Position numbers and translations under genes: made by a program. The notes under the pieces are model-generated. The model searched no databases. It saw only the letters and a list, made by a program, of their open reading frames with translations, and was not told the origin of the DNA. This document shows positions 45,165 to 52,198 of a stretch of DNA of 64,000 nt, piece after piece (the stretch's first letter is position 1; every line of letters begins with the position of its first letter). The DNA comes from Paragemmobacter straminiformis. GTDB lineage: Bacteria > Pseudomonadota > Alphaproteobacteria > Rhodobacterales > Rhodobacteraceae. The stretch is taken from the NCBI RefSeq assembly GCF_014243445.1, contig NZ_JACLQD010000003.1, positions 1 through 64,000 on the forward strand, in the 5' to 3' direction.

Positions 45165-46346
45165 ATGGGACGCAAGTTCGGTTATTTGCCCTACCGCTCG
45201 ACCGTAGTTAAAGCATTTTGCGTTGCTTCGGTCGCGGCCGCCACGCTGTTCGTGCTGCCCGAGAGCGGCAAGGCGCAGGTCCGCAAAGTCAAAATTCCCC
45301 AGGAACTGTGCGTTTATTCGCCGCTCGGCAAGAAGCTGATCGCGGTGATCAAGGCACGTCCCGATTACGCACGCATCCTTGAGTATCTGAGCAACGAGTG
45401 CCCCGAAGTGGCGCTGCTGTTCGTAGACGAGCCGACCGCGACGATCCCGGACGAGCCGGGTGGCGGTGGCACCCCGACCGATGGCGGTGGCACCCCGACG
45501 CCGACGCCGACCCCCACTCCGACCCCGTCGCCGACGGCTACCCCGACCCCGACGCCGACTGCTTCGCCGTCGCCGGAAACGACTCCGACCCCGACCCCGA
45601 CCCCGACCGCTTCGCCGTCGCCGGAAACGACTCCGACCCCGACCCCGACGGCTACCCCGACGCCGGAACCGACCCCGACCCCGTCGCCGACAGCTACCCC
45701 GACGCCGGAACCGACCCCGACCCCGACCCCGACGGCTACCCCGACGCCGGAACCGACACCGACACCGACGCCGACGGCAACTCCGACGCCGGAACCGACA
45801 CCGACACCGACGCCGACGGCAACTCCGACGCCGGAACCGACCCCGACCCCGTCGCCGACGGCAACCCCGACCCCGCCGCCGCCGCCGCCGACTCCGACTC
45901 CGGAGCCGACCCCGTCGCCGTCGCCTTCCGCTTCGCCCTCGCCGTCGCCCTCGTCGACGCCCGCTCCTTCGCCGACGCCGAAAGGCAACAACGGCAATGG
46001 GAATGGCGATGAAGGTGAATGCAGCGGCGCCGATTGCACCGACCCGTCCAACCCCGGCAACGGTGGCACCGGCGGTAATGGTGGCAACGGTGGTAATGGT
46101 GGCAACGGTGGTAATGGTGGCACCGGCGGCACGGGTGCTGTCGCTCCGACCGACACCACGACGACTGATACCGGCAACGGTAACGGCGGTGGCAACGGCA
46201 ACGGCGGTGGCAACGGTAACGGTGGTGGCAACGGTAACGGTGGAAACACCGACCCCGCCCCTGCCGAGACGGCTCCGTCTGATACGGCACCCTCGGAGAC
46301 CGCCCCGTCGGATACTGCTCCGTCGGATACCGCTCCGACCGAGTGA
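45165..46346 (+). CDS. exported Thr/Pro-repeat and Gly/Asn-rich protein of unknown function
   Basis: The 393-residue protein starts with a signal peptide (about residues 1-38). A short domain of about 50 residues with Cys49 and Cys79 follows, then a long Pro/Thr/Ser tract (about 105-280). This includes five perfect 14-residue repeats of the type [14 protein letters not shown], encoded by 42-bp DNA repeats at 45648-45857. Next come a pair of cysteines (GECSGADC), a Gly/Asn-rich stretch, and a C-terminal run of [10 protein letters not shown]-like repeats. No anchor or sorting signal is seen. It looks like a surface or periplasmic stalk protein and a good O-glycosylation acceptor. Confidence 0.82.
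45648..45857 (+). repeat. five 42-bp tandem repeats coding for Thr-Pro units
   Basis: Units begin at 45648, 45690, 45732, 45774 and 45816, each coding 14 residues (TATPTPEP followed by TPTPTP or TPTPSP). A partial sixth begins at 45858. The units differ only by a few synonymous or Ser/Thr changes, so they arose by recent duplication. Confidence 0.88.
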
Positions 46347-46365
46347 TCGGACCTGAAGAAACGAG

Positions 46366-46392
46366 AAATGGCCGCCCTTGGCGGCCATTTTT
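46366..46392 (+). terminator. rho-independent terminator
   Basis: ATGGCCGCC and GGCGGCCAT form a 9-bp stem with a 3-base loop, followed by a T run, 20 bases after the repeat-protein stop. Confidence 0.9.
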
Positions 46393-46430
46393 CATTTGGG
46401 GGGGCGGATGCCCTGCCCCGCGCGCGCGGC

Positions 46431-47051
46431 TTAGCTGATGCGGTCCATAACGCCGCCTGCGAACACGGCGACCCAGCGGCTGGGTTGGCGGGGGTCTTGC
46501 AGACGCAGGAAGGTGTATCCGGTTTCACGCCACGGCTTGATGCGGCCGGTCATGTTGTCGAGCACGAGATCTTGCGCGCCGGTGCGCAGAACCAGCACGG
46601 CATGCGAACGGTTCTGCCGGTCAAGCACGGTGGCGATGAGCAGTTGATCGGGCGAGAAGCCTGCCTCGATCAGGCGTAGCTTCTTGTAGAGGACGTAATC
46701 CTCGCAATCACCGCCACGGCTGGTCGGCAGGCTCCAGCGTTCGGCGACGGACCATTGGCGCTGGTCCGAGATCGGGCGGACGGTGCGGTTGGCGCTTTGG
46801 TTCACCTGCTGGACGGTTTTCAACGCCTCGATATCAAGGCGCTGGACGCGGCCGGTGCGGGCGCAGGCCCATTCATAGGTGCGGCACAGATTGGTCGCGC
46901 CCGGAGGGGCGGAGACCGTTGCTTTCACGGGAATAAGGTCACGGTGCATCTTGCGCGCGTCGATCGCGTGAGCGGGCATTACAAAAGACATCAGCACGGC
47001 TACGGGCAGCAAGCTGCGCAGCACCGCGCTGAGGTGTAGGATTTGGCGCAT
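46431..47051 (-). CDS. transglutaminase-like periplasmic cysteine protease (BTLCP, LapG-like)
   Basis: The 206-residue protein has a signal peptide and the Cys-His-Asp triad of bacterial transglutaminase-like cysteine proteases: Cys in GGDCEDYVLYKK, His in RSHAVLVLRT, and Asp in LVLDNMTG. LapG of this family cleaves large surface adhesins under c-di-GMP control through LapD. No lapD is adjacent, so target and control are unknown. The ATG at 47051 follows a GGGGGGA ribosome site. It is convergent with the Thr/Pro-repeat gene. Confidence 0.88.
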   Translation of the reverse strand: MRQILHLSAVLRSLLPVAVLMSFVMPAHAIDARKMHRDLIPVKATVSAPPGATNLCRTYEWACARTGRVQRLDIEALKTVQQVNQSANRTVRPISDQRQWSVAERWSLPTSRGGDCEDYVLYKKLRLIEAGFSPDQLLIATVLDRQNRSHAVLVLRTGAQDLVLDNMTGRIKPWRETGYTFLRLQDPRQPSRWVAVFAGGVMDRIS

Positions 47052-47239
47052 GACATCCCCCCTCGGGCAGAACCTCGGATGGAGGTAATTGACCGTGGGA
47101 CCGCGACCTTGGTTCGACCGAAGCAAGGCAATTTCGCGCTGAGAGACTAAACCTTAGGGCGAGTTTTAGCTTTTGAAAATCAGGGCGTTAGCGCGAAGGC
47201 CAAGCCAAGCGCGGCAGGATTTGGGCAGGTAAAGCGCCC

Positions 47240-48601
47240 TTAAGGCCATGTTTTGAAGAGCATGCGCGATTCGTAGGCGGCCGGAGTGAGCGGTTCGCCA
47301 TAGGTGAAGGGCTTGAGGAAAAGAAAGAAGCCCGCAAGCGCCACAACCCAGACGAATCCTGTCACGCGCGACAGGCCGAGGCGCGTGGCAAGGACCGCGG
47401 TGGCAGCGACGGCAAAGGTCAGGCTGGGCATGTAGTGATACAGGAACATGGGCCGGTCGATCAGCGCATAGGGCAGGAAAAAGGCGCTGTAGGTGATGGC
47501 CATCCATGCGGGGGCGCATTCCTCGCCGGTCTTCCACAGGGTCAGCGGGCGGCGTGTCCAGAGGAAGAGCTGGTCGAGCAAGAGCTTGGCCATGAAAAGC
47601 GTGGTGGTCCACAGGAGGACGAGGTTGGGCAAGAGGTAGATGCGCGACAGGTTCGGTTCGAGGCTGTCGGTCCAGTAGTAAACGCCGCGTATGCCGAGCG
47701 GCCAAGTATACCAGCGCGAGGCATAGGGGTGGTCCCCCACGTTGCCGGCGACCGTGGCCATCGTGCGGTTGAGTTCGGCTATGGCGGCAAACAGGCCGAG
47801 CGGCACCGTGCCATCGGTCGCGGCGGGGTGGCCGTGCAGGCGGGCGTTGAAAGAGGGGATCATGAAATCCGCGCCCGAACCGGTATTGGGCAGAAGCAGC
47901 AGATGGGCGGCGAAGCCCGCGACATACCAGACGCCGATGACGGCAAAGATCGTCAGGGCCGCGACGACCGAGCGGCGGAACTGGCCGGCCAGCGCCTCGC
48001 GCCCCAGGATCAGGAACACGGGGACGAGGAAGGCGAGCGCGGTCCATTTGATCGAGACGGCACAGGCAAGGAAGAAGGCGGTGCCCAGCAGCGTGCCAAG
48101 ACTGCGGCTGCGCAGCCATTCGCCCAGAAAGACTCCGGCGGCGAGGCCGCAGAAGATGAGCGGGCCATCGGGCAGGACAAGGCGGCTTTCGGCAATGCGC
48201 AGGTTGTCGAAAACCAGCGCCCAGCCCGCGACCATGCCCCAGAAACGGCTTGCCCCCATCAGGATCGCCATGCGCGCCATCAGAAGCGGGCAGGCGGCCG
48301 CAAGCCCGCAGAGGAAGCCGCGCTGAACGACGAAATAGGCGCCGTCATAGGCTTGCTGGAAATCGGGCATCCCCTGTCCGTGATAGCCGCCAAGCCATGC
48401 GAGTGCCGCGAAGAGAAGGCGCAGGTGCGGGGGGTGGATGTCGATGTAGAACTCGCCCGTGAAATAGGCGGCCCAGAAGGTGCCGTAGCTTTCGTCGAAC
48501 ACCACCGAAGCCGGAGAGCCGAGGCCGCGGAAGGCCGTGGCAAAGGACACGGCGGCGAGGGCGATCCACAGAAGGCGGTCGGTCTGGGTCGTGCTTTGCA
48601 T
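47240..48601 (-). CDS. GT39-type protein O-mannosyltransferase homologue (PMT family)
   Basis: This 453-residue polytopic membrane protein has about ten hydrophobic segments. Its first outer loop shows the PMT signature: catalytic Asp36-Glu37 in VVFDESYGTF, then YIDIHPPHLRLLFA (compare the eukaryotic FDE and DVHPP motifs). PMT enzymes move mannose (or another hexose) from a polyprenyl-phosphate donor to Ser/Thr of exported proteins. The ATG overlaps the GtrA stop (TGATG), so the two are coupled. Acceptor and sugar are not known. Confidence 0.86.
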   Translation of the reverse strand: MQSTTQTDRLLWIALAAVSFATAFRGLGSPASVVFDESYGTFWAAYFTGEFYIDIHPPHLRLLFAALAWLGGYHGQGMPDFQQAYDGAYFVVQRGFLCGLAAACPLLMARMAILMGASRFWGMVAGWALVFDNLRIAESRLVLPDGPLIFCGLAAGVFLGEWLRSRSLGTLLGTAFFLACAVSIKWTALAFLVPVFLILGREALAGQFRRSVVAALTIFAVIGVWYVAGFAAHLLLLPNTGSGADFMIPSFNARLHGHPAATDGTVPLGLFAAIAELNRTMATVAGNVGDHPYASRWYTWPLGIRGVYYWTDSLEPNLSRIYLLPNLVLLWTTTLFMAKLLLDQLFLWTRRPLTLWKTGEECAPAWMAITYSAFFLPYALIDRPMFLYHYMPSLTFAVAATAVLATRLGLSRVTGFVWVVALAGFFLFLKPFTYGEPLTPAAYESRMLFKTWP

Positions 48602-49068
48602 CAGTGGGCTTTCCATGTGTGCCGCTTGGACAGGCGGTAGTTCCAGACGGTGCCCGCCGCAATGCCGACAAGGGTGGCAAGCGGCCAGAAGGGCGCGAGG
48701 CGGATGGTGATATAGGCTGCCGCCACGTTGATCAGCGCGCCGAGGCTGCTGATGAGGCAAAAGCGCAAAAGCCCCGCAGCAAAGGCGCGGCCATGCAGGC
48801 GGTGGCCGGGGAAGGTGAAGCGGTTGTTGAGGACGAAGTTCAGCACCATGACCGCAAAGGTCACTGCCGTATGCGACGGCAGGAAGGGCAGGCCGAGGCC
48901 GTTGAGCAGGACCGCGAGCAGCGAAAAATGCACCGCAGCACCAAGGGCGCCGACACAGCCGTAAAGCAGGAAATCGAGGGGAAGAGAGGTCGCGCGCGAC
49001 AGGCCTTGCAGCGCCGCCATCAGGCTGGCGGGCAGTTCGGACCGGATCGGTTCGTTTGGCAATGTCAC
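48601..49068 (-). CDS. GtrA family membrane protein (polyprenyl-phosphate sugar flippase)
   Basis: The product (about 155 residues from a GTG at 49068) has four membrane segments and the family signature LNFVLNNRFTF; the last segment ends with VWNYRLSKRHTW. GtrA proteins are thought to flip undecaprenyl-phosphate-linked sugars. The start is uncertain: a TTG at 49104 and an ATG at 49020 are also in frame. It is coupled to the PMT gene and divergent from the GT2 gene that may make its substrate. Confidence 0.85.
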   Translation of the reverse strand: MTLPNEPIRSELPASLMAALQGLSRATSLPLDFLLYGCVGALGAAVHFSLLAVLLNGLGLPFLPSHTAVTFAVMVLNFVLNNRFTFPGHRLHGRAFAAGLLRFCLISSLGALINVAAAYITIRLAPFWPLATLVGIAAGTVWNYRLSKRHTWKAH

Positions 49069-49158
49069 ACCCGACGGCTTCGTTTTGCGATAGAAGTAGC
49101 CCAAGCCGGTGGCATCATGTTAATTAAATTTAATAGCATGGGCCAACAGAGGTGCAGG

Positions 49159-50148
49159 ATGGCGATTTCGGGTGACACCCTCACCTTGATTGTGCCGGTC
49201 TTCAACGAGGAAGAGGCTGTCCCGCGCTTTCTCGAGGAAATCAGCGCCAAGCTGGCGGGGCTGGATGCCGCGCTGGAGATCCTGTTCATCGACGACGGGT
49301 CGAAGGACCGCACCTTCGAGGTGATCCGCGAGGCGGCGGCCAAGGATGCGCGGGTGCGATACATCAAGCTGTCGCGGAATTTCGGCAAGGAAATCGCCCT
49401 GACGGCGGGGCTGGAACTGGCGCGGGGCGATGCGGTCGTGCCGATGGACGTGGACCTGCAGGACCCGCCCGAGCTGATACTCGAGTTCGTGCGGCTGTGG
49501 CGGCAGGGATACAAGACGGTCTATGGCGCGCGCCGCCGCCGCGATACCGACAGTTTCATGAAGCGGATGACGGCGGGCGGCTTTTACCGCGTGTTCAATG
49601 CCGTGGCGGATATGCGGATACCCGAGGATGCGGGCGACTTCCGCCTGATCGACCGCGAGGTGGTCGAGGTGATCCGGCAATTGCCCGAACGGACGCGCTT
49701 CATGAAGGGGTTGTTCAGCTGGGCCGGGTTTTCCACCATCGGCGTGCCCTATGACCGCCCCGCGCGCGAGGTGGGGACGACGAGCTTCAACTATCGCAAG
49801 CTGTTCAGGTTCGCGATGGACGGGATCACCAGTTTCTCGACCCTGCCGCTGCGGGTCTGGTCGGCCTTTGGCGCGGTGATGGCGCTGGCGAGCCTTGGTT
49901 ACATGCTGATCGTCGTGGTGCGGACGCTGGTGTTCGGGGTCGACTGGCCCGGCTATGCGTCGCTGATGTCGGCGGTGCTGTTCTTCGGATCGGTGCAACT
50001 GATCTCGGTCGGGGTGCTGGGAGAGTATATCGGGCGGATCTATTTCGAGACGAAGCGGCGCCCGCTTTACGTGGTCGAGACCAGCAACATCGGGGCGAGC
50101 GCGATCAGGGCCGCCGATCCGAGCGGATCGGGTCGAACAGCAGCCTGA
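49159..50148 (+). CDS. GT2 polyprenyl-phosphate glycosyltransferase (GtrB/DPM1-like)
   Basis: The 329-residue protein has a cytoplasmic GT-A domain with [28 protein letters not shown], and the metal-binding [11 protein letters not shown]. Two C-terminal membrane segments end in [16 protein letters not shown]. This is the typical layout of enzymes that load glucose or mannose onto undecaprenyl phosphate. It is divergent from gtrA-PMT, making a likely pathway. The ATG at 49159 follows GAGG. Its last 44 bases overlap the convergent ATPase gene. Confidence 0.9.
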
Positions 50149-52015
50149 GGCCGTTGAGGACGACAAGCACGGTCCCGCCTTCGTGGCCCAGAACGGCAAG
50201 GGGAAGCGGCAGGTCGAAGAACAGGCCGCCGACAACCAGCACGCCCATGGCGCCCAGCGCAAAGATCAGGTTCTGGCGGATGATCGCGGCGGTGCGGCGC
50301 GCAAGGCGGTGCGCGGCGGCGAGGCGGTCCATGTTCTCGGACAGAAGGGCCACTTCGGCGGCCTGAAGCGCGACCTCGGAGCCTGCCGCGCCCATTGCAA
50401 TGCCGACATCGGCGCGGGCAAGGGCGGCGGCATCGTTCACGCCGTCACCGACAAAGGCGACGCGGCCCCTTGCCGCAAGGTCGCTGACTAGACGGACCTT
50501 GTCGGCGGGCAGAAGATCGGCGTGGATTTCCTGCGGCGAGAGGCCCAGCGCCTGACCGATGCGCAGCGCGACGGGGCGGCGGTCGCCTGTCATCATCACG
50601 ATGGTCTTGATGCCTGCGTGGCGCAGGGCGGCCAACCCCTCGCGCGAGGTGGCGCGGGGCTGGTCGGCTACGGCGACCGCGCCAAGAAGCACGTCGCCGC
50701 GCCCGAGGTAGACCACGGTTTCGCTGCCGTCTTGCAGGATGGCGAGGGCGGGATGGGTGAGATCGGCCCCCATGCGGGCGGCCATGCGGGGGTTGCCGGC
50801 CCAGATCGGGCCGGATGCGTGGGTTCCGGTGATCCCCTCGGACGGGTGGGCGGTGACGTCGGTGACGGTTTCGGGGGTAAGGCCCCGCAGTTCGACCGCG
50901 CGGCGCAGGGCATCGGCAATGGGGTGTTCCGAGTGGGATTCGATGCCCGACATCAGGGCAAGCAGGGTGGTTTCATCGATGTCGAGGGGAAGGAGGCGCG
51001 TCACCTCGGCCCGTCCGGTTGTCAGCGTGCCGGTCTTGTCGAAGGCGAAGGTCTGCACGGTGGCAAGGGTTTCGAGCGCGGCTCCGCCCTTGAACAGCAC
51101 CCCGCCACGGGCGGCGGCCGACAGGGCAGACAGGATCGCGGCGGGGACCGAGATGACCACCGCGCAGGGGCTGGCGGCGACAAGGATGGTCGCGGCGCGG
51201 TAGAGCGCTTCGTCAAAGGGTTGGCCGAGATAGAGGAAGAGGCCGAAAAGCAGGATGGAGCCTGCCAGAACCGCGACGGTGTAGCGCTGGCCGAACCATG
51301 CCGAAAAGCGTTCGGAGGGGGCCTTTTGCGCCTGCGCCTCGGTCACCATCGCGATCATGCGGGCGACGGTGGATTCGGCGATGGGGCGCAGCACCTCGAC
51401 CGTCAGGATGGCGTGGAGGTTCACGGTGGCTTCGTGGACGCGGTCGCCGGGCGATTTGACGACGGGGATGGATTCGCCGGTGATGGTGGATTCGTCGAGA
51501 CTGCCCTGGCCGACGGTGATGCGGCCATCGACCGGCACGCGCGCGCCGGGGCGCAGGACGACAAGATCGCCGGGGTTCAGCGATTCGACGGCGACTTCGG
51601 TCACGATGCCGTCGGGACCAAGACGGAAGGCGGTTTCGGGGCGCAGGGCCATGAGCGCCTCGACCGCGCGGCGGGCTTTGCCCATCGCGCGGTGTTCGAG
51701 CATGTTGGACAGGCGGAACAGCGTCAGCAGGACCGCGCCTTCTAGGGCCGCGCCGACAGATGCCGCGGCAAGGGCGGCCACGACCATGAGCAGATCGACA
51801 TCGAGAACGCGTTCGCGGAACAGCTCGCGCAGGGCGGTGAAGGCGGCGGGGGCGCCGCCGGCCAGAAAGACGGCAAGAAGGGCGATGTCGGTCTGCGGCA
51901 GCGGGGTGAGGAAACGGTTGGCCAGCGCATAGGCCATGCCCGCAAGGGTGACCACCGTCAGCGCGAGGTCGAGCCCTTCGGGCATTTCGGATGCGTGGGA
52001 ATGTTCGTGCGCCAC
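50105..52015 (-). CDS. P1B-4 type heavy-metal ATPase (Co/Zn/Cd-type exporter)
   Basis: The 636-residue pump has the metal-transport motif [10 protein letters not shown] (SPC), phosphorylation site [13 protein letters not shown]-binding HP dipeptide (SHSEHPIAD), hinge [11 protein letters not shown], and the C-terminal [17 protein letters not shown] plus the HEGGT motif mark the P1B-4 group, tied to Co, Zn, Cd or Fe. The N terminus has a short His-rich stretch (AHEHSHA) and no CxxC domain. The GTG at 52015 is preceded by GGGGG. Confidence 0.9.
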
Positions 52016-52198
52016 CGGATCGCCCCCATGTGTTGCTGCGCGCCAGTTTGAACACCGTTTGGCGCGTGCCGCAACGCGGCATGGTGACGGGTCATCGCGG
52101 TTGTGCCCGGATTTTGCCACAACTCTGGGGGTTGGGGGCGCGGCTTGGCCCGCAAAGCGCCCCAATCGCATGTTTCGGCTTGCAGACGGAGGCCGCCG

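Follow-up and report, generated by a model that had tools for sequence, protein, structure and literature searches.

Which protein is the regular partner of an exported repeat protein encoded in Paragemmobacter straminiformis? We analyzed a 64,000-nt stretch of DNA from this bacterium (the window), in which one gene (45165-46346, + strand) encodes an exported repeat protein (REP) of 393 amino acids, composed of a signal peptide, a two-Cys domain, a Thr/Pro tail and a Gly/Asn-rich end. A sequence-only reading of this DNA had proposed that a glycosyltransferase of family 2 (GT2), a GtrA flippase and a family 39 transferase (GT39) of the protein mannosyltransferase (PMT) type make, flip and transfer a hexose onto the five Thr-Pro repeats of REP. 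All of these genes are present. The proposed set did not include the gene that separates the REP gene from the PMT gene, which encodes a Peptidase_C93/BTLCP protease (46431-47051, - strand; hereafter C93) convergent with REP. The regular partner of REP is this C93 protease, not the PMT cassette. Primarily, the locus is a module of a protease and its partner, with a glycosylation cassette attached to it in one lineage.

Synteny of REP and C93

The first 102 residues of REP were used for a search of 148 genomes. Matches were found in 15 genomes including its own; these comprise 11 of the genus's 18 other genomes. The matches share the signal peptide and the two-Cys domain, and their tails are wholly different. 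Around the same-genus REP loci, window included, the gene order TetR, REP, slot, C93, P-type ATPase and histidine kinase was observed in 12/12 loci, and REP and C93 were arranged tail-to-tail in all of them; the REP copies of one genome (G004; genomes are denoted by G numbers and loci by L numbers) were taken from separate REP searches.

The pairing extends to other genera. REP was present in 19 genomes outside the genus, 16 of which were examined widely (G075, G314 and G374 were left out). A convergent C93 gene was found in 12 of the 16, and in 12 of the 13 with uncut contigs. Three of the four exceptions lie on contigs that stop, toward the expected position of C93, within ~450 bases of the REP domain; in G042, no C93 match was found in the 18 kb around REP. 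Two genomes, G061 and G330, each have an extra REP copy without an adjoining C93 gene.

Of 531 confirmed C93 places, the 80 best were used in the search from the C93 side. A convergent REP was located within 3.5 kb in 58 of these 80 loci (57 by a first profile, L172 by a fuller one), a proportion that is enriched because the C93 query was built from 23 seeds, every one taken from a locus chosen for REP, and because lower-scoring places were not used. Six of the 80 loci had less than 1.2 kb of DNA downstream, and five of them showed a cut-off, mostly Gly-rich convergent frame; the sixth was L174. The 80 loci overlap the other two REP locus sets, and at least eight are same-genus loci again. A narrow literature search found no link between C93 and a convergent secreted partner of this kind.

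A profile search detected REP in at least 21 of 394 family genomes, a lower bound since scoring was limited to 13 candidates per genome. Among 289 class genomes it was detected in two, which are Rhodobacteraceae. In the samples searched, the REP family was observed in Rhodobacteraceae only. The C93-locus records bear Rhodobacteraceae names or names of genera that belong to this family, apart from a few metagenome-assembled genomes with names at higher ranks only (L109, L113, L116, L134 and L137; four of the five with a convergent REP) and one Bdellovibrionales metagenome-assembled genome (L173), in whose C93 locus REP was not seen.

Further copies of both genes were observed. A second REP-domain protein of the window genome (L077:4722-6710, - strand, in G000:C13) has ~660 amino acids and an Ala-rich tail; at its junction, TQSI takes the place of TA[ST]I, and no C93 match was found in the 14 kb around it. 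A second C93 gene of the same genome lies on another contig (G000:C8:487849-488304, - strand). In L108, L110, L114 and L135, C93 is convergent to a gene that is presumably catalase-peroxidase KatG, and for at least three of these, the same organism or record set contains a REP-linked C93 as well.

The C93 protease and the REP junction

C93 matched PF06035 with 154.7 bits (cut-off 27) and has a signal peptide-like N-terminus. Its Cys, His and Asp, named from the spacing of the HvyA triad, were kept in 23/23 sequences. The C93 profile matched PDB chains 4u65 (2e-13) and 4fgo (6e-9), both of which we take to be LapG. The score for the LapG equivalog NF045674 was 47.4 bits against a cut-off of 320, so the protein belongs to the C93 family and is not LapG itself. 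The N-terminal domain of LapD (PF16448) had no match in any of 20 genomes, and no control gave a match either.

The REP family is built of a signal peptide, one or two two-Cys domains (~55 residues) ending with T-A-[ST]-[IV], and a hypervariable tail. In the window, the domain comprises ~58 residues (residues 39-96; 45279-45452, + strand) and could be assigned to no Pfam or NCBIfam family. The best E values of the 66 family members against Pfam and NCBIfam were 0.0094 and 0.026, none of them credible, and searches of the PDB with the domain gave nothing usable either by sequence (best E 0.75) or by fold from a weak model (best E 2.2).

To describe the junction between domain and tail, we aligned 66 domains, comprising 64 of 65 listed (the second L165 copy was left out), that of the window and that of G007. 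The two Cys residues were invariant. The junction Thr was present in 65 domains, the next residue was Ala in 54, the following one was Ser or Thr in 60, and the complete TA[ST] was found in 50. Conservation collapses directly after this motif. In the window the motif at the domain/tail border is D-E-P-T-A-T-I (45426-45446, + strand), which resembles the LapG site; the predicted cleavage would be T-A|T. A structure model of REP contained four helices; the motif follows the fourth and has no structure in the model. LapG substrates are described as having a helix, a DP motif and then [T/A/P]AAG, cut between the alanines (PMC13090378). The likeness of REP to this site is partial, and we therefore infer cleavage but do not class REP among the LapG substrates. 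Most likely, C93 cuts REP at the T-A-[ST]-[IV] junction.

The C93/BTLCP pairs LapG-LapA and DvhG-DvhA, as presented in PMC13090378, resemble the REP locus in having a protease of this type and a partner in which a helix, a D-x-P-like turn and a T-A motif precede an extended part. Unlike those partners, REP is small, has a Sec-type signal and carries TA[ST], not AAG. HvyA of Caulobacter crescentus is likewise an alphaproteobacterial periplasmic C93 protein, but is encoded in a capsule export locus (PMC4241560), whereas the neighbor of C93 in the window is REP.

It is rather unlikely that C93 cross-links REP or otherwise processes it without cutting, or that REP regulates C93, with the motif marking a structural domain end. 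The C93 family is transglutaminase-like, the available text of PMC4241560 identifies no target of HvyA, and the extra REP copies of the window genome, G061 and G330 have no nearby C93, all of which would suit such a role. LapG and DvhG, however, are proteases (PMC13090378), and in the model the motif lies unstructured behind a helix.

The GtrB-GtrA-PMT cassette and the REP tails

The tail of the window REP includes a Thr/Ser-Pro region (45480-45980, + strand), within which five copies of a 14-residue unit ending with [ST]P occupy residues 162-231 (45648-45857). Tandem Repeats Finder (TRF) reported a 42-bp unit of 7.9 copies in the gene. Among the five copies, six of the seven nucleotide sites that vary fall on third codon positions, and five of the six variable codons are synonymous, so the repeats look translated and constrained. 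Long antisense open reading frames over the repeat were taken as composition artefacts.

Tails of other REP proteins have quite different compositions: Ser-Pro in G013, collagen-like GPTGPTGE in G007, TQPTVPTQPTEP in G010, NGTDPVDPT in G002, GGPGGGN in G014, acidic and Gln-rich in G005, and short and acidic in G001, G006 and G018, of which G018 and G006 are near-copies. We ranked the 85 distinct tails of at least 25 residues, obtained from 101 REP frames, by [ST]P density. The REP tail of the window ranked first and that of G013 third, and the median was 0. With a looser count (Ser/Thr next to Pro), G010 was second and G013 fourth. A recurring NGHGND...SNPG motif was also observed at the end of or inside four tails (L087, L088, L089 and L142); a looser joint form of the pattern occurs in 7 of the 85 tails and is perhaps a metal-binding or sorting signal.

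The PMT-family enzyme (47240-48601, - strand) matched PF02366 with 91.5 bits (cut-off 22.7) and PF16192 with 107.2 bits (cut-off 32.4), and has FDE and DIHPP motifs. It aligned with PDB 6p25 chain A (protein mannosyltransferase 1), presumably yeast Pmt1, over the FDE and HPP loops; the DE and HPP loop motifs have a role in PMT enzymes. Its start overlaps the stop codon of the gtrA gene (TGATG), which encodes a flippase-like membrane protein (48601-49104, - strand; PF04138, 73.7 bits, cut-off 26.1; start codon uncertain). The GtrB-like GT2 gene adjoining gtrA (49159-50148, + strand; PF00535; read from ATG) is divergent from gtrA-PMT across a 54-bp intergenic region (49105-49158), which probably contains the promoters. 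A simple window score gave two C-terminal hydrophobic segments for GT2, which is a predicted polyprenyl-phosphate glucose synthase. It scored 344 bits (7.4e-102) with the glucose-specific Synechocystis GtrB (SynGtrB), 157-165 bits with ArnC-type enzymes and 61 bits with dolichol monophosphate mannose synthase. GtrB makes undecaprenyl phosphate-glucose from UDP-glucose (PMC4728340). Since GT2 is far closer to SynGtrB than to the mannose synthase, the hexose is likelier to be glucose than mannose, the sugar of the actinobacterial PMT enzymes to which the sequence-only reading referred. The order of synthesis, flipping and transfer in that reading agrees with the gene content, and transfer of the hexose to REP is a prediction.

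The window PMT protein was found in two of the 148 genomes, its own and that of the sister G013 (79%), with the cassette at the same spot. Both carriers have a REP with a Ser/Thr-Pro tail, in line with the expected co-occurrence, and retention of the PMT without the repeat protein, the case that would speak against it, was seen in none of the searched genomes. PF16192 was detected in 3 of the 148 genomes. Among 385 genomes of the class it was found in 7 (6 over the cut-off), and among 349 of the phylum in 22 (19 over the cut-off); these counts overlap and include the window genome. Four of the seven class genomes belong to one other family, and among the relatives examined no same-family genome has PF16192 besides the window genome and G013. 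The PMT is thus rare but recurrent in the class. Back-translated patterns gave no confirmed PMT homologues in genome contigs, plasmids gave no match, and a literature search for PMT with alphaproteobacteria found nothing. In G102, an alphaproteobacterium of another family, a PMT gene stands beside a GT2-GtrA fusion (L046:7154-10083), with no REP match in 18 kb.

The comparison did not support a dedicated, exclusive pair of enzyme and acceptor: the cassette is missing from 10 of the 12 same-genus REP loci, and one of these ten has a Thr/Pro-rich tail. At the loci of the genus without the cassette, the match to the Zn/Cd-type P-type ATPase, a conserved flank (50105-52171, - strand, in the window), ends within ~450 bases of C93; in the carriers the cassette lies between the two. 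Other enzymes are found nearby. In eight relatives a TPR-sulfotransferase gene lies between REP and C93 (e.g. L039:11649-13115), co-directional with C93, and both slot sulfotransferases tested contain PF13469. In G007, whose tail is collagen-like, a GT4-type enzyme is encoded directly downstream of REP on the same strand (L036:9040-11681). In G004, REP is present in two copies, and neither the sulfotransferase nor the GT4 enzyme gave a match. Sulfotransferase and cassette occur together in 0/12 same-genus loci. A role of the slot enzyme as a tyrosine sulfotransferase of REP is not favored, because seven of the eight tails beside it have no Tyr. In a tree of a neighboring RND pump gene from 12 genomes, the window genome (G000), G013 and G007 formed a trio apart from the other nine (100/100). 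The inner order of the trio is open in this tree, so that gain of the cassette in two genomes and loss in one are not told apart.

The acceptor might be a surface polysaccharide rather than a protein, if the three genes form a glycan-modifying system like gtrA-gtrB-gtr on O antigens. The GT2 and GtrA correspond to the usual opening pair of such three-component systems, which share with the cassette a polyprenyl-phosphate sugar synthase, a GtrA flippase and a GT-C transferase (PMC11127046), and the C93 homologue HvyA governs the Caulobacter capsule (PMC4241560). Unlike the Gtr(type) enzymes of PMC11127046, however, the GT-C part in the window is a PMT-family enzyme with PF16192 besides PF02366, aligning with solved protein mannosyltransferases, and its acceptor is probably a protein; none of the nine window genes given families is a polysaccharide gene. 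We consider a polysaccharide acceptor very unlikely.

It is unlikely, less strongly so, that the GtrB-GtrA-PMT set glycosylates many exported proteins and stands beside REP and C93 incidentally or only conveniently. The tblastn search found PMT genes of the phylum often beside GtrA (7 of 22 short loci), without a REP match there; the sole wide PMT neighborhood read, that of G102, likewise had none; the cassette is usually missing at REP loci; and four further PF02366 matches lie elsewhere in the window genome. In both carriers, however, the cassette is at the REP-C93 locus, and the window REP has the densest [ST]P tail. Glycosylation of the tail by the cassette is the best reading. A comparable arrangement is cnm-pgfS-pgfM1-pgfE-pgfM2 of Streptococcus mutans, where the adhesin gene adjoins genes for the GT2 PgfS and a PMT-2-like membrane protein needed for adhesin modification (PMC5856776). 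That system is Gram-positive and includes an epimerase, unlike the window, and the available text of PMC5856776 does not mention GtrA or a C93 partner. The window GT2 scored 304 bits with NF047588 (PgfS), below the cut-off of 500.

A proposed releasable, decorated surface tail

These observations can be combined into one explanation, in which REP is the exported partner of C93, the cassette glycosylates its Ser/Thr-Pro tail and C93 releases the tail. The two-Cys domain would be held constant and the tail left free to change, with C93 acting on the junction between them as LapG does on adhesins. On the cytoplasmic side, GT2 would link a hexose, probably glucose, to polyprenyl phosphate; GtrA would turn the product over, and the PMT enzyme would put the hexose on Ser/Thr beside Pro after Sec export of REP. 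The result would be a stiff tail, coated with sugars and located at the surface or in the periplasm, that the protease can release. As a whole, we give this explanation about even odds.

Several observations weigh against it. No REP match was found in 7 of the 18 other same-genus genomes, and among the 80 C93 loci, four had a nearby non-convergent REP (L136, L154, L169 and L174) and in 13 no REP was seen. The D-P part of the junction (regular expression D.?PT) was found in only 29 of the 66 domains, and REP has T-A-[ST]-[IV], not the scissile A-A of LapG substrates. The structure model is weak (mean pLDDT 68, pTM 0.47) and is used as a guide only, given its mean pLDDT. The cassette is absent from most REP loci, and where present it lies beyond C93 and shares no operon with REP. 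The second-ranked [ST]P tail belongs to a Marivita record (L154) without a PF16192 hit, and the Ser/Thr-Pro-rich tail of G010 is also found without PF16192. The two carriers are close kin, so the match between tail and enzyme amounts to about one independent event.

More broadly, we tentatively suggest an undescribed two-gene module of Rhodobacteraceae, consisting of C93 and a convergent secreted protein with a constant two-Cys domain, a built-in site for cleavage and a tail that evolves almost freely. A neighboring slot may swap modifiers (sulfotransferase, GT4 or PMT cassette) along with the tail chemistry, which would give species-specific, enzyme-decorated and protease-releasable surface tails. 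BTLCP/C93 proteins are particularly widespread in alphaproteobacteria (PMC4241560), where the text at hand leaves the HvyA target unnamed; REP, being kept in place and orientation beside C93, provides a testable candidate substrate of C93. The PMT cassette is a naturally occurring example of probable O-glycosylation of a protein, found at a single locus in two closely related genomes; the relatives that lack it serve as controls.

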